This document shows positions 5,681 to 21,839 of a DNA stretch of 64,000 nt, in pieces. The stretch is taken from contig NC_009901.1 in NCBI RefSeq assembly GCF_000018285.1, positions 4,215,001 through 4,279,000 of the forward strand, read 5' to 3'. The DNA is from Shewanella pealeana ATCC 700345. Its GTDB lineage: Bacteria > Pseudomonadota > Gammaproteobacteria > Enterobacterales > Shewanellaceae. The position numbers and the translations under genes were made by a program. The notes under the pieces were generated by a model. It saw only the letters and a list, made by a program, of their open reading frames with translations. It made no database searches and was not told the origin of the DNA. Every line of letters starts with the position of its first letter. Position 1 is the stretch's first letter.

Positions 5681-6202
5681 ATGACCCGCCAAGCTGCTAA
5701 CCTGTTGAGCCAACAGCAACAATTAATTGTCAGAGATGCTGAGACCAGTGTTGATGCCTGTACTGGTGTTGATCTTAATATTGCACGCCGCGGGCCCCTC
5801 GCGCGCTATCAAGACCTGGTCGAGCAGCAACAGATTATCGACGACGGCGCGCAGCACCAAGCCATAGCAGCACTGGAACGATTGCATCGGCAGCTCATTC
5901 AAGTGCCTCACACTCAGCAGCCTAGCCATGTTCATCCAGAGTGTCAGGGGATCTACATGTGGGGGGATGTCGGCCGCGGCAAAACCTACTTGATGGATCT
6001 GTTCTATCAAAGCCTTGAATGTGAAAGTGAAAGCGAATCTAAAACTGAAGTCCCCAAGCTCAGGCTGCACTTTCATCGTTTTATGGCGCGCATTCACAAA
6101 GAGCTGATTAGTGAGGCGGCGTCTCTAATCACATCTATCAAATCTCAATTAATGTTACACGTGTTGCCAGTAAAGGGTTTTACTGGTGTAACAAAAATAT
6201 GA
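5681..6202 (+). pseudogene. zapE: zapE 5' fragment (cell-division ATPase, AFG1 family), disrupted
   Basis: The N-terminal part of a ZapE/YhcM-type AAA-like ATPase, which associates with the Z-ring. It contains the family's ARGPLARYQDL-like entry (GPLARYQDLVEQQ), the Walker A segment MWGDVGRGKTYLMDLF and LRLHFHRFMARIHKEL. Homology stops at about base 6122-6124 (EAAS). The next 26 codons come from the inserted island and end at TGA 6200-6202. The rest of the gene resumes in frame at 21840 (SNRDPLKRIAKRV), so the two pieces form one gene separated by about 15.7 kb. The truncated product lacks Walker B and cannot be active as an ATPase. Confidence 0.93.
6154..6192. repeat. Inverted repeat at island left end
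   Basis: GTTACAC (6154-6160) and CCAGTAAA (6167-6174) are mirrored by TTTACTGG (6179-6186) and GTGTAAC (6186-6192), an imperfect palindrome about 30 bp inside the left border. The right border has the related string AGTAAAGAAGGTGTAAC at 21822-21838. These are candidate binding sites for the Gin recombinases. The assignment is inference. Confidence 0.5.
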
Positions 6203-6495
6203 CTTAAACTCATTGTCTCTCCATTCATATAACACCAATAAGTTAACTTTGTTACTAACTGTCGACTAACAATACAGTTTGATCAGATATGTACCTCTTT
6301 TAAGTTTCCCATAACGATATAAGCTTTAAAGTTTAATAATGTTGAGGCTCATTGATACTAACAAGGCTGCAACAAATGAATAAAGATTGATCAATCTCAG
6401 AAACGTGTTTGGACAGAAATTAGTTCGTGATAAAGCAGTCAAGATTATGAGTCTCATTAGGGAAAGTGGATATACGGTAACGCCTTGTTATGCGT
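6203..6495. other. Island left-end non-coding stretch
   Basis: AT-rich with no convincing gene. The segment 6454-6485 (ATTAGGGAAAGT ... CGGTAACGCC) resembles 13518-13553 at the end of the second cassette segment. The string GTTATGCG next to the stop of the last cassette gene looks like a remnant attC R'' box, so a decayed attC is possible at about 6470-6497. Confidence 0.4.
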
Positions 6496-7029
6496 TCACT
6501 CCCCAAGCACCCAATTTACTACGTTGTTTTGGTAATCCTTACTTGACTGTTGAAGCAAAGGCTCCTTGTTGAGCAGTGACAAAATTACAGAAATAGTGTA
6601 ATCACCAGCAGCAACCTCTTGAATAAGTTGGATCACCTGAGATTTAAAGTTGCTCTCATCAATTTTTGTATCCAAGCACCCAGTTAAACCAATAGTTAAA
6701 CTATGAGCTATTTCATTTCTCGCTTCTCTCGCAGCATGGAGGATATCTTTTACGGCATCAGCTATCGGAAGTGATTCAATATTTTTATATAGAACTCGGA
6801 ATTTACCTATCAATTCTGTCGCATAAGCCTCGAATTCCTGTCTATCAACGACCATTACAAACGAGTTTTTTAGTTCAAGATATTTCGATGTATGATCGCA
6901 CAAGTAATCAAAACGAGTTGCAACTATCAAACAACGTCCAAGTATTGCCTGTAGTTCTTCCGTATTTTCTGTAATTTCAAAATCATCTAAAAAGATATCT
7001 GGACTCACAATTTGCCCCTGACGCCGCAT
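6496..7029 (-). CDS. Cassette protein with HEPN-like RX4H motif, unknown function
   Basis: 177 residues from ATG 7029. The open frame continues upstream to 7065 but only through the attC site, so that extension is not credible. An initiation at the nearby TTG/GTG after GGGGCAAA is also possible. The protein is alpha-helical in appearance and carries AAREARNEIAHSL near residue 120, matching the R-X4-H signature of HEPN domains, many of which are RNases in toxin or defence systems. It is the last gene of an integron cassette array read on the minus strand. Whether it is a true HEPN fold is unproven; there is no partner nucleotidyltransferase gene next to it. Confidence 0.6.
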   Translation of the reverse strand: MRRQGQIVSPDIFLDDFEITENTEELQAILGRCLIVATRFDYLCDHTSKYLELKNSFVMVVDRQEFEAYATELIGKFRVLYKNIESLPIADAVKDILHAAREARNEIAHSLTIGLTGCLDTKIDESNFKSQVIQLIQEVAAGDYTISVILSLLNKEPLLQQSSKDYQNNVVNWVLGE

Positions 7030-7143
7030 TAAGGTGTGAGCAACGCAACCACTGAACTTAACCATACCACTTTAAACACGAAACCCAACGATGGAATTAA
7101 AAATGCCAAGCTTTGGGAGTCACTCTTAAATGCTTGTTAGCTG
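7017..7143 (-). repeat. attC site of the metallopeptidase cassette (VCR-like)
   Basis: An imperfect palindrome of about 125 bp, outer arms GCATTAAGGTGTGA and TCACTCTTAAATGC, with GTTAGC and TGACGCC boxes at the ends. On the minus strand it runs GCTAACAAGCATTTAAGAG ... CACCTTAATGCGGCGTCAG, close to the Vibrio cholerae VCR type. It is strongly similar to the sites at 8036 and 8957. The terminal R' box is degenerate. Confidence 0.8.
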
Positions 7144-7147
7144 AATT

Positions 7148-8005
7148 TTAACGCTTATTTACATTTATTTGATACAAAGCTTCTCCTAACATATCTGAGA
7201 AGTTCAGGTCGCTCATAGGAGCTATGTCTATTTTAGTCATAGATTGTAACGTCACGATACTCATTGCTTGACTGATTTCATCACCTATTTCAGAGTGTTG
7301 TGATAAGTTATCAAAAATACGATTACTCGCATCAGGATGAGTACCTTTAAAGCAAGATTTAGAATCTAGCTCTAAGCTCTGAATTGCTAACAATGCGATA
7401 GTTATACCAACAATACGTTTTTTTGATTCTGCTGCTATAGTAGAAGAACTTAGTATCCAATTGGTACTATATAAGTCAGCATCTTTTTCTTCTTGTATTG
7501 ACAAGGTATTAATTTCTAGAGAACTATGACCTAACTCAATATGTGCAATTTCATGCCAAATAATCCATCCTAAAGCACAAAGGAATATTTCCGTTGCTAC
7601 CTCCTGATCAATTTCCTCAACACTTATTAAAGCGCTAAAGTTTTTATTTGGGTCATAACTTTCCGCATATAGACTTTCTTTCAAATATTCAGTTAACTGA
7701 CTTGTTCCAGCATAACCATTAATAGTTTCCAAGTCTAAGTTTTGTTCACCATTCAATTGTGCCTGAGCGTATGCTTGATAAAGTAACCAAGCTTTCAAAC
7801 TAAACGTCCATAAATACTCCAAGCCGCCATAAGGGATCTTTATAACCTTTGTTTTTGTGTTAACACGAAAAGTAAAGCCTGACTCTTTCAAAAAAAGTAG
7901 CGAAAAGTCATGCTTGTTAGATAACTCCACTAGCTTACTTTCATTCTCAGGTGCAACTCGCGATGCAACTGCTGACATTAATTCAAAATGCTCTCTTGTA
8001 AACAA
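7148..8005 (-). CDS. Cassette-encoded zinc metallopeptidase, Lit/U49-like
   Basis: 285 residues. The central segment IIWHEIAHIELGH gives the HExxH zinc motif near residue 150, followed after about 20 residues by QEEKDADLYS, a suitable third-ligand Glu helix (ExxxD). This HExxH...ExxxD order and length are like peptidase family U49, whose known member Lit cleaves EF-Tu during phage T4 infection and stops phage growth. There is no signal peptide or membrane segment, so a cytoplasmic enzyme is expected. The gene is one integron cassette: its stop is 5 bp from its attC and its start 30 bp from the preceding attC. The metallopeptidase call is firm; the Lit relation is a family-level guess. Confidence 0.7.
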   Translation of the reverse strand: MFTREHFELMSAVASRVAPENESKLVELSNKHDFSLLFLKESGFTFRVNTKTKVIKIPYGGLEYLWTFSLKAWLLYQAYAQAQLNGEQNLDLETINGYAGTSQLTEYLKESLYAESYDPNKNFSALISVEEIDQEVATEIFLCALGWIIWHEIAHIELGHSSLEINTLSIQEEKDADLYSTNWILSSSTIAAESKKRIVGITIALLAIQSLELDSKSCFKGTHPDASNRIFDNLSQHSEIGDEISQAMSIVTLQSMTKIDIAPMSDLNFSDMLGEALYQINVNKR

Positions 8006-8035
8006 TGTATTGCTTCCTCTGAACTATGCTAATTC

Positions 8036-8161
8036 TGCTAACGCCGCGTTAAGGTGTGAGCAAGCCACCACTTAACCTAACTATGCCACCTTAAATACGA
8101 AACCCAACGTGGAATGAAAAATACCATGCGTTGGGAATCTGTCTTAAACGCTTTGTTAAGT
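8036..8161 (-). repeat. attC site of the nuclease-like cassette (VCR-like)
   Basis: On the minus strand it begins ACTTAACAAAGCGTTTAAGA (R'' box ACTTAAC) and ends CACCTTAACGCGGCGTTAG. The arms TTAAGGTG and the opposite TCTTAAACGC pair, with GTTGGG/CCCAAC inner stems. The stop codon of the upstream cassette gene lies inside the R'' box (TAA at 8156-8158), as is usual for cassettes. It is nearly identical in plan to the sites at 7017 and 8957. Confidence 0.85.
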
Positions 8162-8938
8162 GCGATTACGAAGCTTGTCGAAAAGCTCTTTATCACGTTC
8201 TGTAAATTCTTTTCTTATTGAAACTGCGATCTTTTCAGCATCATTAGCGAAAGTATCAAGCTCTGTTTTAGTCATGACGGTTACTGAGGTCGAAACTCTT
8301 TCAGGATGATAAGAACTAAAATTGAAACAACTACGCTGTACTTCCTGAAGTTCCAACTCACCTGAGTCATTGAGAGAACATTCAAACAATGGAGAATCCA
8401 CAACAATAACTGGAAAACAGTAGCACAACCTATCAGGCAAATCGTGAGTACGGTCTTGGATATAACCCAAACATGCTTTTATCACTCCAACAGCTGCACT
8501 ATAGGCAGGATCATGATCACCTCCCATCGCTTGCCGAAAATCGTAGCCAGCATATTTTGACGTCTCTGTATAATCACGGATATGTTCCAACCCATGATCC
8601 ATCAATTTGTCCACAAAAGCTTCTCTTCCTTTATCTGAAGCAATACAAAATGAATTTAGTCTGTGGTAACTATCTGACAATACTTCACCTTTGAGTACAA
8701 CCCACGGTTTTTTAGAAGCTTTACATTCCATGACAAAAGAAACATCGGTTATGCCTGTGCTATTTTGGTCAATATGTATTGCCAATACATCGATTTCTCT
8801 GCCTTTGTCGCTATCATAATCTTTGTAACAATGAGATTGATACACATCAAAACTATGCTTTCTGAAACTAAGAGCTGTTTTCATTTCTAGCGGAAAGCCT
8901 GTCTTATTCATCCAGTCTAGAACTTTATTCGACAACAT
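8156..8938 (-). CDS. Cassette protein with PD-(D/E)XK nuclease-like motif
   Basis: 260 residues, no membrane segments. Near residues 45-75 it has KGREIDVLAIH followed by SFVMECKASKKPWVV, the D...ExK arrangement of PD-(D/E)XK nucleases (Asp of EID, then ECK) as found in Mrr-like and many defence nucleases. The rest is not recognised. It is a cassette gene in a minus-strand array, with its stop codon inside its own attC and the preceding attC 19 bp upstream of the start. Cleavage activity and target are unknown. It could instead be a catalytically similar but non-restriction enzyme. Confidence 0.65.
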   Translation of the reverse strand: MLSNKVLDWMNKTGFPLEMKTALSFRKHSFDVYQSHCYKDYDSDKGREIDVLAIHIDQNSTGITDVSFVMECKASKKPWVVLKGEVLSDSYHRLNSFCIASDKGREAFVDKLMDHGLEHIRDYTETSKYAGYDFRQAMGGDHDPAYSAAVGVIKACLGYIQDRTHDLPDRLCYCFPVIVVDSPLFECSLNDSGELELQEVQRSCFNFSSYHPERVSTSVTVMTKTELDTFANDAEKIAVSIRKEFTERDKELFDKLRNRT

Positions 8939-8956
8939 TTAATTATTTCCTCTTAG

Positions 8957-9083
8957 CAACTAACGCCCTCTTTGGGTATGAGTAACGCAATACCGCTACT
9001 TCCGCATACAACCTTAAACACTAAACACAACGCATAGTAAAAATTCCACGTATTGCGAATCCCTCTTGAACGGTTTGTTATGA
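8957..9083 (-). repeat. attC site of the trypco2-like cassette (VCR-like)
   Basis: On the minus strand it starts TCATAACAAACCGTTCAAGA and continues GGGATTCGCAATACGTGG, then ends CCCAAAGAGGGCGTTAGTT. This is the closest of the set to the classical VCR (AACAAACGCCTCAAGAGGG ... GGGCGTTA, from memory). The R'' box TCATAAC and R' box GTTAGTT fit RYYYAAC and GTTRRRY with one mismatch each. Confidence 0.88.
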
Positions 9084-9104
9084 ACGTATTCAACTCATGC
9101 GATA

Positions 9105-9467
9105 TTACTCATCGAGCTTTGTTGGCAAATCGACCGGTATTTCAAATTGAACACGATGAGCTGTATGAGATTCATCATGGCTTTTAGCCCCGCCCCCGAT
9201 TGAAAGGACAGCTAGCTTCGCCTTAGCGCTAGTATCCACACCTGAGCTTTCTTTAACCTGTAGTGCGATATCGAATTTGATTGTTTGTTTATCAGGCCTT
9301 ATCTTAAATTTTTGTGAGCTAATATGACTGCCATTACATGCTTGATATTCAGTATCAACACTCGCTGGATTAACTATACCGCCAAGAGTTTCTACTTCCT
9401 CGGAAGCATCTTTAACACCTTTGGCAATCTGCACTAAGGTTTCTTTTATGTATTCATCTAACTGCAT
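9105..9467 (-). CDS. Small cassette protein, possibly trypco2-type
   Basis: 120 residues from ATG 9467, which has CGGAG at good spacing; a longer open frame to 9530 runs through a cassette boundary sequence and is not used. The N-terminus LDEYIKETLVQIAKGVKDA is an amphipathic helix, followed by beta-rich KFDIALQVKES and LSIGGGAKS segments. This helix plus strand pattern resembles the trypsin-co-occurring 'trypco2' domain found in defence-associated proteins. The resemblance is from memory and weak. It is the first gene of the longer cassette segment, followed by a well-formed attC. Confidence 0.5.
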   Translation of the reverse strand: MQLDEYIKETLVQIAKGVKDASEEVETLGGIVNPASVDTEYQACNGSHISSQKFKIRPDKQTIKFDIALQVKESSGVDTSAKAKLAVLSIGGGAKSHDESHTAHRVQFEIPVDLPTKLDE

Positions 9468-9478
9468 TTTCACTCCGA

Positions 9479-9552
9479 GTTCATAACAACTTATTAGTGC
9501 GCATGCGCGTATGTTTGGCAAAACACGCATGCATATTTAACAACCTATCATT
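9479..9552 (-). repeat. Cassette boundary sequence upstream of the long array
   Basis: Minus-strand GCGCATGCGCACTAATAAG followed by GTTATGA directly precedes the first cassette gene. The hairpin TGCGTGTTTtgccAAACATACGCGCA is centred here. A related string (GCGCATGCGCACTATACAAA then TGTTAAC) lies before the second array at 14502-14526. It could be a short or truncated attC or an attI-like site; the R'' half is not visible. Confidence 0.4.
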
Positions 9553-10000
9553 TAAGACCTGCCAAATTAAAGACTTTGATTTATAAGAACTATATCAGAG
9601 TGATGCTGGATAAACGAGCATAAGAATTTGCAGGGTGAGTATTGATATTAAGGTTGAATCGAAAGCTATAAATGACTGCTATTTATTGATGAGCATAAGT
9701 AGGTAAATAAGCTCGTCACTACTCTGAACAGCTTATTGCCTGTAACTAATAAAGAGGCAATAGAAGTTAGATATCAAACCTCTATTGCCTAAAGTCGTAC
9801 AACAATTTTCGGTGTAGATATGGCAGCGGGCTTCGATGAAAAGGATGTCATCTCAGCGTTTCAAGGCTGTATCTGCATATACTCCAGCTACTGCGATTTC
9901 TAGCATCAATAAACCTGTCTGATTCATCAAGTTCATTATACCTGTAAAGAGTTACAGTTATTTAGGTTTTTATAGGAAGATTCTTTTCGGCCTTATCAGC
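9553..10000. other. Non-coding stretch between cassette array and XRE gene
   Basis: No gene seen. It contains a clear hairpin, AGGCAATAGA (9755-9764) with TCTATTGCCT (9781-9790), but without a strong T run. GGTGTAGATATGGC near 9819 resembles an intergenic repeat seen again near 14773 (GTGTAGATACGGC). The region may be decayed cassette or insertion-sequence DNA. Confidence 0.35.
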
Positions 10001-10207
10001 TTATGGAAGTAACTCTCTGACGTCACATTCTAATACCTCAGCGAGCTGATAAGCTTTTTCTAACGTGATATTGACTTCTCCGCGCTCGATTCTCCCCCCA
10101 TAACTGCGATCTATTTCAGCTAAAAGCGCCAATTTATCTTGAGACATTCCCAACTCTTTGCGTTTTTTTCGTAAATTGAAGCCAAATTGGATTGCTAAGT
10201 CTTTCAT
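10001..10207 (-). CDS. XRE-family transcriptional regulator
   Basis: 68 residues, consisting of a single Cro/CI-type helix-turn-helix: FGFNLRKKRKELGMSQDKLA then AEIDRSYGGRIERGEVNITL and a closing VLECDVRELLP. The size and sequence are like controller proteins of restriction-modification systems. It is divergent from the 179-aa gene and helicase, and the 128-bp spacer contains two tight palindromes that suit such a regulator. It probably represses or times expression of that module and itself. The HTH call is firm; the role is inferred from position. Confidence 0.88.
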   Translation of the reverse strand: MKDLAIQFGFNLRKKRKELGMSQDKLALLAEIDRSYGGRIERGEVNITLEKAYQLAEVLECDVRELLP

Positions 10208-10245
10208 TTTTCATCTCGTTAAAGATAAAGACTATCCAAAGTTGC

Positions 10246-10273
10246 GGCTTATAAAGCCACGGATTATAATCCG
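10246..10273. promoter_or_regulatory. Twin palindromic operator between XRE and helicase module
   Basis: GGCTTATAAAGCC (10246-10258) and the perfect palindrome CGGATTATAATCCG (10260-10273) are adjacent, with centres about 14.5 bp apart, in the spacer between divergent genes. The arrangement is like controller-protein operators. Binding by the XRE protein is inferred. Confidence 0.6.
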
Positions 10274-10335
10274 CATTTAGTTTGTAATGTTTTTCTACTC
10301 CCTAGAGCTAGTGATTAACACCTTGTGAGAAAGTC

Positions 10336-10875
10336 ATGCCAAAAGTTTCAATCAAAATATGCGCTACGTTGCATACTATTCTCCAGGATGAGAGCTTCAA
10401 TAATTTCCAGGTCGTGCAGTTACGCGATAGATTTTTGTCTGCATTAAGTAGCAACCAAAGTGTTAGTGAAGCCTATAAATTTATTTATAGGCAGGTCTGT
10501 CGACTCGTTAAGAAGAAAGCCTTACGAAAAGTTAATAAGGAGAGCTCGAAAACGGTCACTTATCAAAAGACAGAGTTATTTGATCAAATCAACTTCGTCA
10601 TAAATGACTCCATTGAGACTAGTAAGCCCTCGCAAAAATTACTAGATAAGACTGAACTCGCAGTTATTCAACAACTTCAAGAGCGCCTTAAACAAACAGA
10701 AGTCGATCTACTTACTAGCATTGGAGAGTCTGAAGAATATATGCGGCTATACAAATCTTTCCCAGAGATGAAGGAACACCTTGAGTCGCAGTACATGCTA
10801 GCTAGAGAAAGTAGCTCGAAGTTACTTGGTCAAATTAAAGCGATTAAATCGGTACTCTCGCACCAACAGAAGTAA
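10336..10875 (+). CDS. Unknown protein, partner of the SF2 helicase
   Basis: 179 residues, not recognised. It is rich in Lys, Gln, Ser and Glu and predicted mostly helical, with a coiled-coil-like region around IQQLQERLKQTEVDLLTSI and a C-terminal basic helix. It has no membrane segment or obvious catalytic motif. The stop codon is 5 bp before the helicase start, with no separate strong ribosome-binding site there, so translation is probably coupled and the products may act together. It lies opposite the XRE regulator and shares its operator region. Confidence 0.65.
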   Translation: MPKVSIKICATLHTILQDESFNNFQVVQLRDRFLSALSSNQSVSEAYKFIYRQVCRLVKKKALRKVNKESSKTVTYQKTELFDQINFVINDSIETSKPSQKLLDKTELAVIQQLQERLKQTEVDLLTSIGESEEYMRLYKSFPEMKEHLESQYMLARESSSKLLGQIKAIKSVLSHQQK

Positions 10876-10880
10876 CTCAA

Positions 10881-12299
10881 ATGCAATTAAGACAATGGCA
10901 ATTAGAGTGCGTCAATCGCGCTCTAGAGCATTTTAATGCCAACCAAAGACACTTTCTCTGCTTAGCAACTCCAGGGGCTGGAAAGACGATTATGGCAGCA
11001 GAGGTTGCAGCTGAGTTATTCGAACAAGATCTTATTGATTTTGTATTATGCTTTTCGCCTTCTGTAAATATCTCGAAAGGCATTCAGAAAACATTCTCAC
11101 ATCGATTAGAGTGTCGCTTTGATGGAGTAATAGGTGCAGTAGGTTGTTCTTACACATATCAAGGAATGCTATCTTTTAAAGAAGACTTTTGGCAGCTACT
11201 AAAAAGGAATCGGGTATTGGTGATCTTTGATGAGATCCATCATTGTTCTGGCAGTACTCTTGAGGATGCGAATGCTTGGGGAGAGGAGATCTTACTAAAT
11301 ATACAAGATCAAGCACAATACACCTTGGCATTGACTGGGACGCCTTGGCGCTCTGATCAAGCCCCCATTGTTTTATCTCGATATCTAGACCCTGATAACG
11401 AAATTCAGTGTGATTATGTTTACGGCTTAAAAGAAGCTGTGAGAGATGGTGTTTGTCGGAATCCTAAAATAGTATTAATTGATAACGAAGAGCTTTCAGT
11501 TAAAAATCAGTATAATGAAATCCAAACTTTCAGCAGTTTTAATGAGCTTTTTAAAGGTTCATCAATTCCGTATCAATTAGTCATCAAAAATGATTTAGCT
11601 ATTCATCATGTTTTGAGCTTAGCAATTGATAAGCTAGGTAGCATTAGGCAATTGAACCCCGATGCAGCTGGTTTAGTGGTCGCATCTTCAATCGAACATG
11701 CGTGCTTTATCTTAGAAATCCTCAAAAATACATTCAAACAAACAGCAACAATCGTAACTTATCAAGAAATTGCCCCGTCGGATACAATTAACAAGTTTCG
11801 GCATGATGATACACAATGGATTGTTAGTGTAGGAATGATTAGCGAAGGTACTGATATTCCGAGGTTACAGGTTTGCTGCCATTTAAGTAGAGTAAAAACC
11901 GAATTATATTTTCGGCAAATACTAGGTCGTATTTTACGAACAACTAAAGCACATGATCAACAAGCTTGGCTCTTCACTTTTGCAGAGCCCAAACTAACCG
12001 ATTTTGCATATCGAATAGCGATTGAACTACCAGAAGGCTCAACTGTAATTAGAGAGAAGAAACCTAGAGGAAGTATGAAGTTAACAATATCGAATAATTG
12101 TAAAATAACTAATGAACCTCCGAGCCTGCCAAGTTGTTTTACACTTAGTATGGGTGATGCTATAGGTAGGAAACAGATTAATTCATTACCAAGTCAGGCA
12201 ATTAATGATGCTCACTTAATCAGTTCAATGAACCCATCAATGCTGCTACTAGGCAGGTTTAGGGAGAAGGTCATTTCGACTTTTGATTCTCCATTTTAA
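10881..12299 (+). CDS. SF2 DEAD/DEAH-type helicase
   Basis: 472 residues. Helicase motifs in order: Q-like MQLRQWQLECVNRAL at the N-terminus, Walker A CLATPGAGKTIMA near residue 35, DEIH in LVIFDEIHHCSG near 115, motif III LTGTPWR near 150, and motif VI FRQILGRILRTT near 350. This fits the Res-type/type III restriction helicase branch of superfamily 2, but the protein is shorter than Res subunits and lacks a nuclease domain. It is the second gene of a two-gene operon with the 179-aa protein. Such compact helicase-partner pairs on islands are often phage-defence modules; that role is inference. Confidence 0.85.
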   Translation: MQLRQWQLECVNRALEHFNANQRHFLCLATPGAGKTIMAAEVAAELFEQDLIDFVLCFSPSVNISKGIQKTFSHRLECRFDGVIGAVGCSYTYQGMLSFKEDFWQLLKRNRVLVIFDEIHHCSGSTLEDANAWGEEILLNIQDQAQYTLALTGTPWRSDQAPIVLSRYLDPDNEIQCDYVYGLKEAVRDGVCRNPKIVLIDNEELSVKNQYNEIQTFSSFNELFKGSSIPYQLVIKNDLAIHHVLSLAIDKLGSIRQLNPDAAGLVVASSIEHACFILEILKNTFKQTATIVTYQEIAPSDTINKFRHDDTQWIVSVGMISEGTDIPRLQVCCHLSRVKTELYFRQILGRILRTTKAHDQQAWLFTFAEPKLTDFAYRIAIELPEGSTVIREKKPRGSMKLTISNNCKITNEPPSLPSCFTLSMGDAIGRKQINSLPSQAINDAHLISSMNPSMLLLGRFREKVISTFDSPF

Positions 12300-12453
12300 T
12301 ACTTATTTATGGTGCATATACAAATAAGAATCAGTGTAATGGCCAGCTAAAACTGGCCACGGCTATATAGCATTTCTGAGTTAGGAATTATACTGATTTA
12401 GCAGTATCGCGGATGACCAAATGTATAGTACATTTAGCCCCTAAGCTTTCGGG

Positions 12454-13266
12454 TTAATCTTCTTTACAAAGCCGTTTATATTTCCGCTTTGCATTTCTTA
12501 CTTGTAGATCATCGACTAGCTTATCAAATGGAATATCAAAAGCGACATTCGCAAAAGCAGCAATGGCTTGGTTCGATAATTCAAAATCATCAGGTATTTT
12601 AAAGTTGCAATAGTCTCCATCATTTTCTTTAGAAAACTGCACAGTTCTTAATATTGCCCTGATTTGATCTGCACTAGATGAGCGCTCAGTTCTTGTGAGA
12701 ATCAGATCTAGTTCTGAACTAGTCTCAATTGAAGAATTTTGAGCATCAATCCCAAGTTGAGTAACTATTTGACTAATGGATGGGTAATACCTTAAGCCAT
12801 ACGGGCCAACAGTATTTCTCAACGGTTCTTTTAAATAACTCTCAAACATGTAATTTGATTGTCCAGCATCTTCTATAAGTTTGAATAGAGCATAGTGAGT
12901 ATTGCTTGTAAATGAAGTACTTTCATGTAGTTGAGTTCTCTTATCCAGTTGTTCAGCTAGTTCAAATGCAAGCTTGTAAATTTTGTCATTAATCGCTTTC
13001 AACTCTTTGGGGACTGCTCTTACTTCCCCTACTTCACTCTCATTTCCGAATGCCACGGCGTCGATTACAAGGCCAATGAAACGATTCATTTGAGGAATTG
13101 TTAGGGCTTTGGACATCAGCTTTACATGTAGCTCAAGCTCTGAATACCGTTCTATAAGCCTCTTAATTACCGCATAGTCAGAACGGTGCCTTTTTCCCTC
13201 AGCGGCCTCCTTTAACTGCCCCTCCAAATACTCAAATGCATTAAGGTCTATAAATTCACCCATCAT
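12454..13266 (-). CDS. Unknown island protein
   Basis: 270 residues from ATG 13266, chosen because CCGGAG lies 7 bases upstream; an open frame extends to 13323 without a better site. It is acidic and helical-looking throughout, with no signal peptide, membrane segment or recognised catalytic motif. It ends in a basic stretch RNAKRKYKRLCKED. It is convergent with the helicase gene, 155 bp away. There is no evidence it belongs to the same operon, but it lies in the same non-cassette block between the two cassette segments. Confidence 0.65.
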   Translation of the reverse strand: MMGEFIDLNAFEYLEGQLKEAAEGKRHRSDYAVIKRLIERYSELELHVKLMSKALTIPQMNRFIGLVIDAVAFGNESEVGEVRAVPKELKAINDKIYKLAFELAEQLDKRTQLHESTSFTSNTHYALFKLIEDAGQSNYMFESYLKEPLRNTVGPYGLRYYPSISQIVTQLGIDAQNSSIETSSELDLILTRTERSSSADQIRAILRTVQFSKENDGDYCNFKIPDDFELSNQAIAAFANVAFDIPFDKLVDDLQVRNAKRKYKRLCKED

Positions 13267-13605
13267 ACTATTCTCCGGTCTTGTTAACTGGTGCTGTGCA
13301 AAGCTAATAGATCCCGAACCCAAAGTACCAATCTGAGTTAAATATTTTTTTGACGAACTGAGATTGGAAACCTCAATCTGAATCGCTACAATTGCTCTGG
13401 GACTGTAAAAGCTTGCTCAGGTGGTTTTATCAAAGTTTGGGGCATAAGTGAGTCAGCGCTGACTCGAAAATGGACAAAAGTTTGTTAGAGTTAAAGTTCT
13501 GGAAGTAATAATTGGTATTAGGGAAAGTATGGCAATCAAGTATGCGGTAATGCCGCACACAACCGTGGAGTAGTTGTCGGTTTGCTTGGTCTTGTTATGT
13601 TCCTG
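13267..13605. other. Non-coding stretch with a degenerate attC-like end
   Basis: No gene seen. At 13543-13600 the minus strand reads ACATAACAAGACCAAGC then an imperfect stem around AACC/GGTT and GCGGCATTACCGC, placed just past the stop of the next cassette gene, so it is probably a degenerate or truncated attC. The outer sequence ATTAGGGAAAGT (13518-13529) recurs at 6454-6465 beside the end of the other array. Confidence 0.45.
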
Positions 13606-14031
13606 CTACTTACTGAATTTAAACGGTTTTACTTCCTGCAACGCATACACGGAACTTAGAGCACCTGCAGGATTAGGTGAAAAGCTATAGGTCTTACGGT
13701 AAAATTCACCGTATAGTCTCACTGTTTTGTGATTCCACTTAACATGAAAATCTTGTTGTATGTCCTCAGAAAAACTCACCGTTAATTCTATCGCCTCAGA
13801 CACAATGAAATGCTCTGCTGAATAATTATTAGGGAAGAGGTACACTCTATAACCAGGCTGAGGATACCCTGCATCGGTAACCACTATTACTCCTGTTAAG
13901 CTCACCAAATTTGAATCAAACTCCTCGGGAAAGGTTATGAGCTGATACATCGAAATAGATATCCCTCTATCGGTGGCAGCAAATGCTGTCGTTTGCGATA
14001 AGATGAGGAGAAAAAATATAAAAAGTTTCAC
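13606..14031 (-). CDS. Secreted or periplasmic cassette protein, unknown
   Basis: 141 residues with a clear signal peptide MKLFIFFLLILSQTTAFA and likely cleavage after AFA. The mature part (LVSLTGVIVVTDAG, KTVRLYGEFYRKT) is beta-rich and suggests a small OB-like or beta-barrel fold, but no family is recognised. It is an integron cassette gene: a palindromic attC lies just upstream and a degenerate attC just after its stop. Expected location is the periplasm or outside. Confidence 0.7.
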   Translation of the reverse strand: MKLFIFFLLILSQTTAFAATDRGISISMYQLITFPEEFDSNLVSLTGVIVVTDAGYPQPGYRVYLFPNNYSAEHFIVSEAIELTVSFSEDIQQDFHVKWNHKTVRLYGEFYRKTYSFSPNPAGALSSVYALQEVKPFKFSK

Positions 14032-14044
14032 TGAACTCCCTTTG

Positions 14045-14143
14045 AAACATAACTCTGCGTTATGCGGTGAGTAATTGTTGGCTAAAATGTGAAGCGAAAC
14101 CGAGCCAACTGTTATTAATCCGACTTTAAGGCCTTGTTAGCAC
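14045..14143 (-). repeat. attC site of the membrane-protein cassette
   Basis: A palindrome of about 97 bp, pairing CGGTGAGTAATTGTTGGCT with AGCCAACTGTTATTAATCCG around a short loop. The outer boxes are GCTAACAAGGCC and GCATAACGCAGAGTTA on the minus strand. Shorter than the VCR-like sites of the first array but with the same plan. It overlaps the 3' end of the membrane-protein gene, whose C-terminus NKALKSD is encoded by the attC arm. Confidence 0.8.
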
Positions 14144-14483
14144 TCAATTGCTTGTACCAATTCATAGCCCAATTACCCATTACAATTAGAAAGCCAACAC
14201 TTAAATAACCTAAAAACAGTACAAAAGTGGTAGGAGTTATTTTTAAATCAAATCCAGATGCTATAAGCAATAATATGTTTGCAAGAATACTAGAAACAAA
14301 AATCATTATGCTTACAGAATTTACATTTTTAAGACGCTCAGCGGAAGCTTGGAGTGACATTAAGGCTACAACAAACCAGTGATGATTTGTATAAACTTCT
14401 TCCTTTGCAATAAGAATATAAATCATAGTAAAAATAAAACCGAGCATAGGTAACAAGGCAACCGAATTTAAAAATTTACTCAT
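14115..14483 (-). CDS. Small membrane protein in an integron cassette
   Basis: 122 residues with four hydrophobic segments (residues about 8-25, 37-45, 56-76 and 85-105), so an inner-membrane protein with no other recognised feature. The start follows GAGGGAG with good spacing. The final residues NKALKSD and the stop codon lie within the attC arm, a common sign that the frame has been extended by the cassette end. It is the first gene of the shorter cassette segment. Function unknown. Confidence 0.7.
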   Translation of the reverse strand: MSKFLNSVALLPMLGFIFTMIYILIAKEEVYTNHHWFVVALMSLQASAERLKNVNSVSIMIFVSSILANILLLIASGFDLKITPTTFVLFLGYLSVGFLIVMGNWAMNWYKQLSANKALKSD

Positions 14484-15223
14484 AACTCCCTCTTGAGTGT
14501 TAACATTTGTATAGTGCGCATGCGCTTATTAAACCTGTTATTTAAATCAAAACAGCATAAGACATTGATATTATAGCACAAACCTTCCTCCCTCAAGTAT
14601 AGATGAGTATAATTCACACAACATTTCCCTAGAAAAACGAGCAAAGCAGATAATACTGTGTAAAGAAACTGTTTAAGAGTAACTTCCCATGACAGCTAAA
14701 AAAGCCCTTTTTTGGCTCAAGTTAGACATCAAGCAACACCAACCTAAATGAGTGCACCAATTACCCTGTGTAGATACGGCCGTGACCGTCCATGACAAGG
14801 TGAGAGATAACGAAGTTATCAAGCTTTCGAACTAGAGGCAGGATGTCGAACTAGCTTTTTAGCTGGGATGCTATTCGTCATGACCGAGCTTCCAAGGACC
14901 TTTCCGTTATTGAGAAGTACTGCGTGTCGCGAAAGTGTCTGCACATGCGTCCGCTGCAGGTGATTGATAGCTATGAAACTACAAGTTCAAACACTCAAGT
15001 TGGTATCACTCATCCAAAAAAAATGTAATCACCCTTCATTCAAAGGCTAACTCACTTTGGGGCATAAATGTTTTAGCTTGTCTGTCCCATACCTTCTGAC
15101 ACTGCTCAAAAGCAATCAAACTTTATTGGGTTCGTTCAGACTATATTGTTAGCCAACACTAACAGAGATGTTGGCAGTGATACTTGTAAAACATCGTGCT
15201 TTATTTCTTAAATTAGCAGTTAA
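14484..15223. other. Non-coding stretch between cassettes and gin operon
   Basis: No credible gene. At 14502-14526 the minus-strand string GCGCATGCGCACTATACAAA then TGTTAAC matches the boundary sequence of the other array. Around 14773-14830 (GTGTAGATACGGC, then GATAACgaaGTTATC) there is a short hairpin-bearing sequence that looks like a fragment of an intergenic repeat. The 3' region of the gin operon ends near 15180 without an obvious terminator. Confidence 0.4.
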
Positions 15224-15607
15224 TTAGCTTTCCAATTCAAGAATACGTTGAGCAAAAGCGTTACGCTCCTCCAATAAAGAGTCATACATAGAGTAAAGCT
15301 CATGTATGTGTGCCATTAGCATGGCTATAGTTTCCTTATCGTCCTTCCCCTTTGCTTCAGCAAGCTTGCGCTCAAGGTTTTCGTTTCGTTTAAGTAGCTT
15401 CTTTGTTTGGTCTTTTTGCTGATCAACTAACGCTTGTTCTTTTTGTTTTTTCTTGAGGTTGTTGATCATCTCCTTGATGTCAGGGTGACGGTTGTAAATG
15501 AGCGAATGCGATAAACCACATTTGTGAGCAACTTTGCTTATGGTGATCGATTCACTGTTTTGTTCAAACTCTCTTACACAAGATAATAATTGCTCTCTGG
15601 TGTCCAT
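15224..15607 (-). CDS. ginD: GinD-like small HTH/coiled-coil recombination protein
   Basis: 127 residues. The N-terminal 45 residues form a helix-turn-helix (ITISKVAHKCGLSHSLIYNRH); the rest is a long charged coiled coil (KKLLKRNENLERKLAEAKGK) and a final helix. This matches the TnpC type of small proteins that accompany the Tn554 recombinases and GinD of GInt islands. The gene starts 1 bp after the 680-aa recombinase gene stops, so it is the fourth member of the operon. In GInts all four genes are needed for recombination, from memory of the published work. Its exact molecular job is not known. Confidence 0.75.
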   Translation of the reverse strand: MDTREQLLSCVREFEQNSESITISKVAHKCGLSHSLIYNRHPDIKEMINNLKKKQKEQALVDQQKDQTKKLLKRNENLERKLAEAKGKDDKETIAMLMAHIHELYSMYDSLLEERNAFAQRILELES

Positions 15608-15608
15608 A

Positions 15609-17651
15609 TTAGCTCTCTACGGTTGTTTGCTCGTTAATTGGTGTGGTGGAAGTAAGGTTATTTATGATTTCATTAGCAGCGTTAAGGTTGTCTTCTAAGC
15701 CTGTTAAGAAGGACTGGTAGCGCGAAGTGTCAGGTAAGGTATTAATACGCGCTATCTTTTGCTCACAGCTATACTTAATCGCTTTCCAATAGGGCAAGTG
15801 TTTGGGGGTGGCATAGTATGTATCACAATACAAACAATGTGAGGGATCAGACGCATTCTTTATTTTACACCCTGCGCCTTTAGTGCAATAGCCATGCGGC
15901 AAACCTCTCACACTATCACTGTGGCGAGTGGCAAAATCAATTAACTCCTGAGTGCTATTGAAATGTGGTTGTTGGGCCGTTGTATAAATGACCTGTGATT
16001 GATTAACGTTTAACTTAGCAAGGAACTTGGAAAGCCTATCACCACCTCCTCCTGCTACCTGTTTTTGTTTGGCAGACTCTACAATGTCTTCAATGGCCTG
16101 TTTGTTGGTTAGCTCCTCAAAGTATTCAATGCACGTTCTAAGCTCACTAAGGGATTCATAACCACGCTCAGAATAAACAAACGTCATTACAGAGTTAAGG
16201 TGCTTAAACTGGTATTTAATGTCATCTAAATCACCTAATCGGTTGGCGATAATAAACCAAGCAAAAGTATGTCTAAATTGATGCGATGTTAAGTTAAATA
16301 AATCACCAACTTTATATTTTAAGCCTCGTTTGCCACTCAGCTGGCTAACTGATTGGTAGTTGCAGTTCATTTTTTCAAGCTGCTCGATGTCAATAGCTGT
16401 CACCTGAAATGAATGTTTGCTCATAGAGATACCACTGTTAGCGTCCGACGCTCTGGAAGCCTGCACAAATCTGGCGGTATTTTTAGTGTGTTGTATGCCA
16501 AACAACCGGTTGTCTTTAAGTCCTTTTTCATATCGGTCTAAATGACCTTTAGGCATCTTGTGCATATGGTGCTCAAGCATCAATCTAGCGCGCTCCCTGT
16601 AAATCTCGTTAACCTTACTCAGTAAGTCTACCGCTTCAAACACGATTTCATTTGCAACCCAATCCAGCTCAATCGTTCCCTCGGTAGTTTTTGATAGTTG
16701 ACTTTTGATGGTGAATACGGTTTCGCCAGTTTCTACTCGTTGCGAGTGGCTGTTGTTTTTTAGCGCATAGACTTCGTTATCACGCATACCAGTAAACGCT
16801 AATACCAATGTGTAGACATGGAGGTTTAGGTCTCGTACTAAGTTGTAGCCTAAACCTAGTTCATTATCAAAATTACGGCAGGACGCCGCAATGATACTGC
16901 CAGGATTGCTGCAATTATTTCCTTCAATTCTTTTGTTGGCTTTTGTATGTGGTTCTATGAATAAGCCAATGTTGGACTTAACGTTGTTTATGTAGTCGGT
17001 TGATGACTCAATCACTGACTTCATCACCCCTGTTGGAATGATGGAATGCTTTAAACGGTGTTGTTCTTCATGTTTCGTGATTTTAGAAATGGTGAGTTCA
17101 TCGACCAATGGAGCCAGTAGTGAGCTATTTACCAAACCATATGTATACAGAAAGGTTAATCCCTCACGGACGGTCTTAGCAGCTGAGGTGTGCTTCCCCT
17201 GCTCCATACCACCTTTTGATTTAGGAGCGTTCAAAAAGTCCGTGATTAAATTCCGAAGTTTCAACTCTGGTGACTTGTTTAACTCTCTAAAAGACTTGTA
17301 ACCTTTTGTCTGCAAGAAAGAGCAAAAAGATTTTAATGTGCGAACCCGACTGACAACTGTCTTCCATTTATACGGTGTGCCGCCTTTTACTGTTCCAAGG
17401 TGTAATGCTGCAATCATCATTGTCTTAAGTTCGTAGTCGAACATTAGTGAGCTTGTATCAATTACAAGTCCTTTCTCCTTGGTTGACTGTCTAAAGTAGT
17501 TTCCACCAAATGTCATCGGCTTTTCGTCTGGTGTTTTGTCCCACAATACAAGCCGAGATAGTTCGTTAATATCACTGGTAGATAATTCCTTTACCACGAT
17601 ATCGTTGCTGACATTTATGATGGTTGAGATTATTTTATTGAGATCGGACAT
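15609..17651 (-). CDS. ginC: GinC-like tyrosine recombinase
   Basis: 680 residues. The catalytic set is complete: Arg in FTGMRDNEVYAL near residue 290, HQFRH (HxxR) near 457, His in QFKHLNSV and Tyr in TFVYSERG near 490. After the catalytic domain a Cys/His cluster (CTKGAGC, CLYCDTYY) suggests a zinc-binding tail. It overlaps the 896-aa gene by one base and is followed directly by ginD. It resembles TnpB of Tn554 and the third GInt recombinase. It should cut and rejoin the island ends together with its two siblings. Confidence 0.8.
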   Translation of the reverse strand: MSDLNKIISTIINVSNDIVVKELSTSDINELSRLVLWDKTPDEKPMTFGGNYFRQSTKEKGLVIDTSSLMFDYELKTMMIAALHLGTVKGGTPYKWKTVVSRVRTLKSFCSFLQTKGYKSFRELNKSPELKLRNLITDFLNAPKSKGGMEQGKHTSAAKTVREGLTFLYTYGLVNSSLLAPLVDELTISKITKHEEQHRLKHSIIPTGVMKSVIESSTDYINNVKSNIGLFIEPHTKANKRIEGNNCSNPGSIIAASCRNFDNELGLGYNLVRDLNLHVYTLVLAFTGMRDNEVYALKNNSHSQRVETGETVFTIKSQLSKTTEGTIELDWVANEIVFEAVDLLSKVNEIYRERARLMLEHHMHKMPKGHLDRYEKGLKDNRLFGIQHTKNTARFVQASRASDANSGISMSKHSFQVTAIDIEQLEKMNCNYQSVSQLSGKRGLKYKVGDLFNLTSHQFRHTFAWFIIANRLGDLDDIKYQFKHLNSVMTFVYSERGYESLSELRTCIEYFEELTNKQAIEDIVESAKQKQVAGGGGDRLSKFLAKLNVNQSQVIYTTAQQPHFNSTQELIDFATRHSDSVRGLPHGYCTKGAGCKIKNASDPSHCLYCDTYYATPKHLPYWKAIKYSCEQKIARINTLPDTSRYQSFLTGLEDNLNAANEIINNLTSTTPINEQTTVES

Positions 17652-20341
17652 TAAGACTCTCCATTAACAATCGAAAAGGATGGGGTGGCGAATTCCCAGT
17701 CTGGATGAATGCCATGTTGCTTAAAGAGCGCAAAACCATCCTCTACTGCTTTACAGTTTCTCTCTCGTAGGTTCTCAATAATGTCATCTACGCGTTGTTT
17801 TAGAATATTGATATTGGTGATCTGATTGTCGGTATTGTCAAAGTCAATAACTGACATTTCCATATCTTGTAATATGTAGTTCTTATAACTGAGTAGCTTC
17901 CATACATGCTCGGCATCCACGACAACACGGAAATACTTACACCAAACGCAGCTAAGAAAATCTGCACACATTTTCTGATTACTGTCTTCATTAATTTGAT
18001 GTAGTTTTCGATGCTCTCTAGCGTAGCGTTCTGCTTCTTCGTTTTGACCTTTCGCTGCACAAGTACCGGTAGGAACTATTTGATGCTGATTAGCGCTCAT
18101 GTCTGTAATGATGTGAATGTCAGATGATACTTCCTTGCCAGCAAAGTAGTCAGACATTATTTTAGTTGCTTGGTTGAGAGAGTAGCGAGATTGTTCAGGG
18201 TTGATCCGCAAATAGTTAGACTCAAACACATCAAAAGAATGTTTGACCGTATCGGTGTACTTCTTGATGCTTTTATTAACTTTTCGATAGATATGATTCA
18301 CACCACCTTTGCGGATTTTTTTAGCCACAAATGGAACACTGCATCCTGCTTTCTTTAGTATGCTGCTCAGGTGTTTTACTGTTGAGTATTCAAGTTTTAA
18401 CACTTCATCATTGCGCGGGTAGATAAACAGGTAATTACTGAACTTTGTTTGTGCCCTAAGCTCAGTGGTGAGTTCATCGCGAATAATTAACAAATCTGAT
18501 ATTGCACTTTTCAGGGTATCTGATTTTAACTCTGATTTGTCAAAGGTATATGTGTCGCTTCTATAGCCAGCTCTGGCTTTTTGAAGAACAACGGCATATT
18601 CGGTTTTATTGGTGATTGGAGATACAACCTCAGCAATGTCGTCACATTCTAACTTAAGTAACGGACTAATGTTCCATCCAGTTTTCAGTATTACCTTACC
18701 AAAGGTAAGTAAGATCCTGTGATATAGGCTTGTACTGCCATCGCGTAATAGTTTTTCAATATAAAAGGCCAACTCTCGACACTGTAGCTCTGTGTAGAAG
18801 TCATCAGTATTAAGGCGCTGTTTATGTTTGACGGTTTTAGTATTCTTGATTGGGTAAATATTGTTAAACGGAATGTCAAACTCCCGCAAGAACCATGACA
18901 AGCTGCTTCTATATATTCTGGCAGTTGTCCTATTGAATGAAGCGTTGTTCACGCTTGATTGTAGTTCAGCTAAGAGGTGATTTTGAGTAAGTCCTCCATC
19001 TATACCAAACCCATTAATACCATGTTGTCTAAGGATACCTAGGTGTTGGTGGTTCAGTGTTCCGCTGTACTTATTCAGGAGCGATTTTAGTTGTTGGTAG
19101 TTGTGATAAACTGTGACCATAGAGTAATCCCTCAGGTCGATATCTACCTTGCATAACTCAAGAAAATTGGCTAAGTCTGTGTAAAGAGTATCAGAAATGG
19201 CTTTAATGGTTGAAAAGTCAGACAGTAGTTCACGATTGTTATCTATGTTAGGAAATGAAAACAAGTTATCTCGAAACGAATTTAGCTCAGGAGTGTTATC
19301 AGGGTAAATACAGGTGCAGATTTCATGTATTAAGAGAAACATCCAACTTGGTAAATTGGGGGAGTCATGAAGGCGCTTAAGTGTTTCATCGCTATTTAAT
19401 AACGCCTTCAATCCTTCAGCTAGCATTGCCGAGTTTAAACTATCAGAGAGCTCTGCCTGTATAATCGGTAACGCTCTTTTGAATCCAAAAAGCTTGTCAC
19501 GGACACTTGCTGGTTTAAGGTGTGAACTTATGGAGTGACCAATAATTTTTGAATACTGTTCAATATCGTTAAACAGAGATTGAGAGGTGCGGTATAACTC
19601 AGTAAAACTAACCTCATACTTGTCTTTCGCGACTACCGACTTTTGTATAAATGTTTCACAGTCGTAGTGCGACAACATAAGCTGAAAGTGAATGGAATTG
19701 TAACTATCCACTTTAGCTGCATCAGCCAGAATGTCAGTGTTGTTCACAAATGCGCCTAAGCCATATTTTGCTAACAGTTCTCGATAGCTGTCCTTTTTCA
19801 TCAGTTGGGTAAGGGTGGCGTGAGTACTAGCCTTGATGTCCCTTAGCTGTTTTTGCGGTCTGTCGGTATCCAATACGTGAAACATAAAGTCGCGGTATTG
19901 GTTAAAAAGAAGATCGGAAGCACCATAAAGTTTCGCTAAATCGGTCACGTATCCCTTTAGGTCTATTCTACTTGGCGGCTTCAAGTCAATATCGTCATTG
20001 AACAGCCTAACCAGTGTTATAAATGCGTTCTTAATCCCTTTGCCTGTTCTTAGGGCTGCATACTCAAGGAGATCCCACACGGTATTGCTTTTAAGAGCCG
20101 ATAATCCTTGTTCTAGCAATGCCTTTAATGATTCAGGGTTAAGTATGTCTATTAGTTTTTCAAATTTAGAGCAGATGTAGCGAATCTGTAATGCAATAGT
20201 CACCTCTGTCTTGTTCCATTTGGCTTTGTTAGCCATATAACGCTTGTGACAAAACTCAATATCATTAGCTAGTTGTTCGCTGTGGACTAATATCCTATCG
20301 AGTCGGATGTTGAGGTTTGGATTACTAAATGCAAGATACAT
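17651..20341 (-). CDS. ginB: GinB-like tyrosine recombinase-family protein with altered active site
   Basis: 896 residues, the largest of the trio. The C-terminal half has the tyrosine recombinase plan, but the first catalytic Arg segment reads ILKTGWNISPLLKLE near residue 555, with Asn where family members have Arg. The HxxR region reads KKIRKGG near 675. A possible HxxY pair is VKHSFDVFESNYLRI near 705. A Cys cluster (CADFLSCVWCKYF) follows, like that in GinC. It begins 1 bp after ginA ends and overlaps ginC by one base. It may be a structural subunit rather than an active recombinase. Alternatively, my motif alignment could be shifted. Confidence 0.75.
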   Translation of the reverse strand: MYLAFSNPNLNIRLDRILVHSEQLANDIEFCHKRYMANKAKWNKTEVTIALQIRYICSKFEKLIDILNPESLKALLEQGLSALKSNTVWDLLEYAALRTGKGIKNAFITLVRLFNDDIDLKPPSRIDLKGYVTDLAKLYGASDLLFNQYRDFMFHVLDTDRPQKQLRDIKASTHATLTQLMKKDSYRELLAKYGLGAFVNNTDILADAAKVDSYNSIHFQLMLSHYDCETFIQKSVVAKDKYEVSFTELYRTSQSLFNDIEQYSKIIGHSISSHLKPASVRDKLFGFKRALPIIQAELSDSLNSAMLAEGLKALLNSDETLKRLHDSPNLPSWMFLLIHEICTCIYPDNTPELNSFRDNLFSFPNIDNNRELLSDFSTIKAISDTLYTDLANFLELCKVDIDLRDYSMVTVYHNYQQLKSLLNKYSGTLNHQHLGILRQHGINGFGIDGGLTQNHLLAELQSSVNNASFNRTTARIYRSSLSWFLREFDIPFNNIYPIKNTKTVKHKQRLNTDDFYTELQCRELAFYIEKLLRDGSTSLYHRILLTFGKVILKTGWNISPLLKLECDDIAEVVSPITNKTEYAVVLQKARAGYRSDTYTFDKSELKSDTLKSAISDLLIIRDELTTELRAQTKFSNYLFIYPRNDEVLKLEYSTVKHLSSILKKAGCSVPFVAKKIRKGGVNHIYRKVNKSIKKYTDTVKHSFDVFESNYLRINPEQSRYSLNQATKIMSDYFAGKEVSSDIHIITDMSANQHQIVPTGTCAAKGQNEEAERYAREHRKLHQINEDSNQKMCADFLSCVWCKYFRVVVDAEHVWKLLSYKNYILQDMEMSVIDFDNTDNQITNINILKQRVDDIIENLRERNCKAVEDGFALFKQHGIHPDWEFATPSFSIVNGES

Positions 20342-21721: not shown

Positions 21722-21751
21722 AGATAGTGTCCTGCCATATATAAACCACAC

Positions 21752-21839
21752 GAGATTTAGTCTTCATTTTTAATCATGAAGTAACATAATTGCACATAAA
21801 TATAGATGGGGTTAGTAACTAAGTAAAGAAGGTGTAACT
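21752..21839. promoter_or_regulatory. Island right end and gin operon promoter region
   Basis: An 88-bp AT-rich stretch between ginA and zapE sequence. It contains a hairpin CTTCATttttaatCATGAAG near 21761-21781 and, at the border, AGTAAAGAAGGTGTAAC, which matches parts of the left-end repeat. It probably combines the gin promoter and the recombination site. Confidence 0.5.

Follow-up and report, generated by a model that had tools for sequence, protein, structure and literature searches.

We examined 64,000 nucleotides of the Shewanella pealeana ATCC 700345 genome (NC_009901.1, positions 4,215,001 to 4,279,000; hereafter the window, in whose numbering features are given) for integron gene cassettes that lie inside a mobile element at 6126..21840. 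On its gene order and motifs, this carrier is an SE (strand-biased circularizing integrative element). We propose that the SE duplicated itself together with its cassettes, as judged from a 6-bp signature, and that the cassettes are of Vibrio-type integron origin and are now moved by the SE, not by an integrase. We put the probability of this reading, which is drawn from sequence comparison, at roughly 0.87. A first-pass annotation of the window had described cassettes without an integron integrase in a recombinase island; it had missed a probable attC remnant, a second cassette cluster next to the gene srap, the attI-like sites that precede the two clusters and, outside the window, a second copy of the island.

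The element and its two copies

The element is present twice in the genome, with 100% identity across 15,715 bp. The window copy is inserted in zapE, and the second copy (C1:2295770-2311484) interrupts an mscS-like gene, whose C-terminal part is a MscS-type channel and whose N-terminal part has no family match. The window copy, its host gene and its recombination genes are as follows:

6126..21840 (-), SE element, 15,715 bp, which interrupts zapE; motif C lies on the intA side at 21840 and motif C' at 6126
5681..6119 (+), N-terminal part of the interrupted zapE; matches positions 1-98 of the NCBIfam ZapE profile and Pfam AFG1_ATPase
21841..22751 (+), zapE C-terminal part; ZapE profile positions 104-344, 262.4 bits
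6120..6125 (+), footprint CGTCTC, 6 bp, at the C' side; surplus to the inferred empty zapE site
21841..21846 (+), GCAATC, 6 bp of zapE adjoining motif C; also at the C' side of the second copy
20342..21751 (-), intA, tyrosine recombinase, 469 aa; Pfam PF00589 E 1.5e-12, named by gene order and motif
17651..20341 (-), tfp, 896 aa, protein of tyrosine-recombinase fold that lacks the RHRY residues
15609..17651 (-), intB, large tyrosine recombinase, 680 aa, GMR..HQFRH..H..Y
15224..15607 (-), srap, auxiliary protein, 127 aa, DUF6262; 74% to its V. cholerae plasmid counterpart

To place the ends, we compared the host genes with relatives that are not split, four for zapE (L114, L115, L117, L118) and L124 alone for the channel gene. 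After removal of the element plus 6 bp, both host genes are in frame and open, with 449 aa for zapE and 545 aa for the mscS-like gene. The 6-bp footprints are CGTCTC at the window copy and GCAATC at the second copy. According to the SE papers, the donor's six bases adjoining C are put next to C' in a new copy (PMC9345347, PMC10214605). Since the six bases by C of the window copy reappear by C' of the second, the zapE copy reads as the donor and the mscS-like copy as its daughter, with the cassettes aboard. This GCAATC match stops after exactly six bases. The left edge was set with the SE rule in mind, and bases 6124-6125 (TC), common to both left edges, were assigned to the footprint to reach six; four of the six footprint bases are independent of that placement, and the chance of the 6-bp agreement lies between 1 in 256 (four unshared bases) and 1 in 4096.

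The presumed donor, the zapE copy, remains at its site, consistent with circle formation that leaves no empty donor site. Immediately past the six bases adjoining C, GYGATCCA is common to both targets. The two ends match as an inverted repeat at 8 of the 11 outermost bases, a value equalled or bettered by 33 of 20000 random pairs taken from the element. Because the identical element, cassettes included, lies in unrelated genes and bears the 6-bp SE signature, travel of the cassettes with a non-integron element, which the first-pass annotation had raised as a possibility, is supported for the whole 15,715-bp unit. The comparison indicates that the element copied itself recently within one genome, together with its cassettes.

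The carrier was assigned to the SEs and not to the GInts because the order intA-tfp-intB-srap stands at one end of the element, as in SEs (PMC10214605), and the motif-deficient protein comes second. In an alignment of five elements, IntA and IntB have the RHRY residues and Tfp lacks them. The "three-recombinase system" described earlier is indeed a recombination core of the element's own, but it consists of two catalytic tyrosine recombinases and one non-catalytic relative, the SE core. GInts likewise have four recombination genes at one end followed by cargo; in them it is the third protein, GinC, that departs from the catalytic motif, whereas here it is the second product, as in SEs (PMC5385486). 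GInt was tried as a name for the carrier and dropped, since the motif-deficient protein is encoded by the second gene and a catalytic one by the third, the reverse of GInts.

In addition to gene order, the element shares with SEs the catalytic motifs, the 6-bp footprint with donor transfer and the presence of two copies in one replicon, and its size is near the median of 15.7 kb given in the SE papers (PMC9345347, PMC10214605). It differs from the SEs of these papers in that its cargo has integron cassettes with attI-like sites and its terminal repeat is shorter; the nearest relative found lies on the V. cholerae plasmid pW6G. The four proteins of this nearest complete relative are 74, 60, 67 and 74% identical to those of the element.

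The cassette clusters and their recombination sites

The cassettes form two clusters, A and B:

9484..9534 (-), attI-like site before cluster A; E 1.5e-5, motif GCGCATGCGCACTA
9105..9476 (-), gene of cassette 1 in cluster A, 123 aa; a Vibrio campbellii protein is 84% identical
8958..9083 (-), attC of cassette 1; 87.0 bits, E 1.8e-20, 15/22 model pairs kept
8156..8938 (-), gene of cassette 2, 260 aa; a Vibrio parahaemolyticus protein is 96% identical
8036..8161 (-), attC of cassette 2; 94.2 bits, E 2.4e-22, 18/22 pairs kept
7148..8005 (-), gene of cassette 3, 285 aa, phage exclusion protein of the Lit family, with HEIAH
7016..7142 (-), attC of cassette 3; 94.2 bits, E 2.3e-22, 18/22 pairs, core GTC instead of GTT
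6496..7065 (-), gene of cassette 4, at most 189 aa, with a probable start near 7005; DUF4145 match below threshold
6478..6490 (-), probable attC remnant TAACAAGGCGTTA after cassette 4; no other exact match in the 64 kb
14501..14526 (-), attI-like site preceding cluster B; profile match at E 1.2e-4, confined to the last third; motif GCGCATGCGCACTA
14115..14483 (-), cassette gene of cluster B, 122 aa, in no Pfam family; ends inside the next attC
14047..14142 (-), cluster B attC, short and weak; 27.9 bits, E 5e-5, 12/22 pairs by sequence alignment
13606..14031 (-), gene after the cluster B attC, 141 aa, perhaps a second cassette; a complete attC behind it was not found

The three attCs of cluster A had been called VCR-like (Vibrio cholerae repeat) earlier, and a covariance model free of window sequence confirmed them as sites of VCR/Vibrio type, at 94, 94 and 87 bits. 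The four minus-strand genes of this cluster end, much as previously described, inside or at most 22 nt from an attC or the attC remnant. The remnant is read as such because two attCs in Vibrio plasmid arrays end with the identical 13 bases. The fifth and last covariance match listed in the window scored 10.6 bits (E 1.7).

The model was built from 38 attCs: two cassette arrays on Vibrio plasmids (L111, L112) supplied 31, and same-genus loci with an integrase (L057, L078, L097, L101) the other seven. These 38 were drawn from 81 collected sites, and since the collecting profile began from the window attCs, they were chosen for likeness. The consensus fold, which we take to be the canonical attC hairpin, has 22 pairs, 10 of them with compensatory change. 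In the training set 97.4% of cells pair, as against 27 to 46% once the partner is slid by 1-3 columns, and the covariation score was reached by 0/500 shuffles. Plain DNA folding of single attCs was rejected in favour of this consensus fold, as only 8036-8161 beat its shuffles (z -2.4; z 0.6 and 0.8 for the other two). Rfam at gathering scores gave no match in the window. When the element was compared with plasmids by megablast, matches covered at most 2% of its length and, in the best rows, fell by position mostly on the attCs. Further attC-like sites outside the island copies lie at C1:1999024-1999151 (90.5 bits), 3471630-3471726 (77.7) and 4988968-4989092 (29.9).

All four window attCs keep fewer pairs than the training sites (minimum 19/22, median 22), in a comparison that favours the training sites because the pair structure was derived from them. 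Together with the GTC core, this suggests that the window attCs are decaying. Such decay would favour transport by the SE over current use by an integrase.

The reported lack of an integron integrase was upheld, since tblastn of intact IntI against the island gave a best E of 0.2 and no match in the whole genome exceeded the TIGR02249 cut-off. The attCs are therefore grouped without a neighbouring integron integrase, as in CALINs (clusters of attC sites lacking integron integrases). Elsewhere in the genome, an integrase fragment in a 125-aa open frame (C1:3199314-3199622) is separated by about 350 bp from a gene of 209 aa that precedes an attC (33.8 bits), and this locus (C1:3197814-3201122, L002) is likely the remains of a chromosomal integron. 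An integrase above the cut-off is present in 77/129 same-genus genomes.

The profile that found the attI-like sites was built from 10 sites of integrase loci. The motif GCGCATGCGCACTA occurs twice in the window, once directly ahead of each cluster, and seven times in the genome at up to one mismatch, four of these in the two island copies. It is also found in 10/20 integrase loci of the genus, where its distance to the start of the integrase match is 288-295 bp for nine of the ten occurrences and 188 bp for the tenth (L100); from its place by integrases, we infer that it is the attI core. We also searched 40 other cassette loci, picked from the better matches of a same-genus attC scan, and the profile matched 13 of them at E <1e-3, including L078 from the training set. 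Twelve of these matches are upstream on the cassette strand; seven lie within 1.3 kb of an attC, and those of L054, L061, L082 and L083 at 2.9 to 9.3 kb. L078 alone of the 13 has an intact integrase in the fetched stretch, while the sites of L061 and L083 are near a contig edge, where the integrase may be cut off. Because clusters A and B begin at attI-like sites without an integrase, they look like integron variable regions without their integrase. A palindromic variant, TGCATGCGCGTTTTGCCAAAT...GCGCATGCGCACTA, stands before genes at 9484-9534 in the window, in L044 and at C1:904858 (L224), the last with no attC match listed nearby.

With regard to the cassette genes, the likeness to Vibrio rests on cassettes 1 and 2; relatives of cassette 3 at E 1e-10 number only four, the closest 94% identical. 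The cassette 2 protein is also 81% identical to proteins of Vibrio and of Photobacterium, and at E 1e-30 it was found, among 394 genomes of the order, in its own genome only. In an alignment with 29 of the 138 relatives found, D50, E71 and K73 are invariant, which to us is reminiscent of the PD-(D/E)XK nuclease motif. The predicted model has a pLDDT of 92; a fold search gave 0 matches at E 0.001 or better, with local likeness to 1y88 only, so that the nuclease reading is a guess. Cassette 3 is likely an anti-phage gene, given its match to NF007238 (332.9 bits, cut-off 274) and to the PADLOC Lit model (337.9 bits) and its HExxH motif. Lit cleaves EF-Tu upon T4 infection. A search of a genome contig collection for relatives of tfp and Lit confirmed none. 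Two same-genus cassettes, one bSEFIR-like (L047:8901-9989) and one with DUF4238 (L060:10176-11126), have PADLOC defence-model matches.

The genes of cluster A had also been said to lack promoters of their own; promoter-like consensus sites in 6200-10400 number 3, compared with 13.1 in shuffles, in a scan that cannot decide promoter presence. Between the two clusters lies an accessory module:

about 10001..12301 (.), HTH gene, 179-aa gene and helicase; 80% and 77% DNA identity to the same-genus SE-type loci L184 and L173

This module occurs in SE-type elements with different recombinase cores and in different orientation, as an exchange of cargo between SEs.

Origin of the cassettes and competing explanations

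On the explanation that we prefer, the cassettes would derive from the Vibrio-type integron pool and would have entered the SE either as a whole integron with later loss of intI or through an integrase acting in trans on the attI-like sites. As the attCs decay, the SE rather than an integrase would move the cassette genes, and the Lit cassette, perhaps with others, may pay its way as phage defence.

The entry step is where a rival deserves most weight, namely that a trans-acting integron integrase added the cassettes to the SE singly, at attI-like or attG-like sites. No integrase trace lies beside either cluster, the attI-like matches at 13 of the 40 other cassette loci (12 upstream, 7 within 1.3 kb) point the same way, and the same genome holds the intI fragment with its attC. 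However, an SE-type element with an integron and its integrase on the S. xiamenensis plasmid pXY8M34-1 makes capture of a whole integron equally available, and we hold one-by-one entry to be a tentative possibility at rather less than even odds. Capture of cassettes by the SE recombinases themselves, through recognition of attC, seems highly improbable: they are tyrosine recombinases, and single-stranded intermediates are discussed for both systems, but there is no attC-like sequence at the two empty sites or the element ends, and the study of SE-6945 found no attC- or attI-like inverted repeats in its attB sites (PMC9345347).

It is just as hard to credit that an assembly artefact or a simple duplication, in place of transposition, accounts for the two identical copies. 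Misassembly could yield 100% identity across 15.7 kb, yet both copies lie in one closed contig with exact ends in unrelated genes, the host genes are restored in frame once the element and 6 bp are removed, and the 6-bp transfer has the low chance given above. That the three attCs belong to a dispersed repeat family, and are not integron recombination sites, is the idea we find least believable. Similar sites are scattered in 62/129 same-genus genomes (at most six candidates scored per genome), and 27/40 fetched loci have a single site; against this, the same sites separate the cassettes of long Vibrio plasmid arrays, stand near integrase genes (L057, L078) and share the canonical covarying fold.

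Several points weigh against the proposal that the SE carried and duplicated the cassettes. Excision, circularization and Lit activity are predictions. Among the four elements compared, only pW6G is close (60-74%), and the experimentally tested SEs were compared by description only. The terminal inverted repeat (8 of 11) is short, below the published 13-19 bp. The search turned up no sister element free of cassettes; in L184 and L173 the helicase module recurs in another arrangement, with no empty site. Moreover, attCs of this type, at E 1e-5 or better, are present in 27/30 SE-bearing genomes of the order, so that we claim no enrichment of attCs in SEs, and the attCs near SEs in some other loci may be coincidental.

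Related elements and significance

A tfp alignment matched 31/394 genomes of the order, own included. From these and other sources we assembled 38 SE-type loci, namely 33 fetched stretches (32 covering 33 matches outside the own genome, and one other) and 5 plasmid records. An attC at E <1e-4 is present in five of the 38 (L192, L165, L189, L184, L128), only two of which are bounded (L165, L128). The first of these two is in G262 (L197/L165/L196, contig 13, 23.6-38.7 kb), where two attCs lie between the halves of a YifB-type gene (profile positions 1-202 in the N part, 215-502 in the C part), which we take to be comM, with intA at one edge. Its cargo includes the Thoeris pair ThsA and ThsB; neither its precise ends nor its 6 bp could be established, and the ends of the elements in G414, G277 and G026 are likewise unset. 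The second is on pXY8M34-1 (L128, 10.5-24.3 kb), where the stretch from the SE core to a 172-bp right end contains an integron integrase of 319 aa (398 bits against a cut-off of 265), together with an attI motif and an attC of 35.0 bits. This right end is 80% alike in two Vibrio plasmid SE-type elements, which also stop by a umuD/S24 peptidase gene. The pXY8M34-1 element adjoins such a gene, and its cargo also holds two group II introns. In L189 (G414, 11425-12784), an IS110-family transposase gene lies about 230 bp from an attC matching only part of the model, as if an insertion sequence had targeted that attC.

Cassette integration has reportedly been described at attG sites (Loot et al. 2024). 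The window resembles such insertions in having cassettes outside integrons; unlike them, its clusters begin at attI-like sites. Integrase-less cassettes, either CALINs or SALINs (single attC sites lacking integron integrases), are described in most Shewanella strains, with 115 single ones (PMC9229058). The window clusters are like these in having attCs without a neighbouring integrase and differ in lying inside a mobile element and being duplicated along with it. An SE-type island of P. aeruginosa also holds integron cassettes within its bounds (PMC11064530); there they sit in a class 1 integron within nested Tn402- and TnAs3-related transposons, whereas here they are direct cargo without an integrase. 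In the SE literature examined, seen in part and with most subscription papers and all preprints outside its scope, cassettes as direct SE cargo were not found. The earlier remark that Shewanella offers no well-described case must therefore be divided: integrase-less cassettes were already described in this genus (PMC9229058), while their carriage by an SE was not found in the sources available. The parts are known, and their combination with a donor-daughter pair appears to be new within the literature searched.

A broader reading, which in our view falls slightly short of an even chance, is that SEs are a regular integrase-independent vehicle for cassettes, even for whole integrons, leading from the Vibrio pool through copy-out/copy-in to the chromosomes of other genera. 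As part of this reading, cassettes planted by SEs would later look like unexplained CALINs, and pXY8M34-1, G262 and the window would be three stages.

Scattered integrase-less cassettes are common in Shewanella (PMC9229058). The element described here would offer one vehicle for their spread that is readable from sequence, since one genome holds both the donor and its daughter. It would link two mobile systems and illustrate how duplication of a defence cassette may proceed with no integrase involved, and it may serve as a natural donor-daughter pair for work on SEs.

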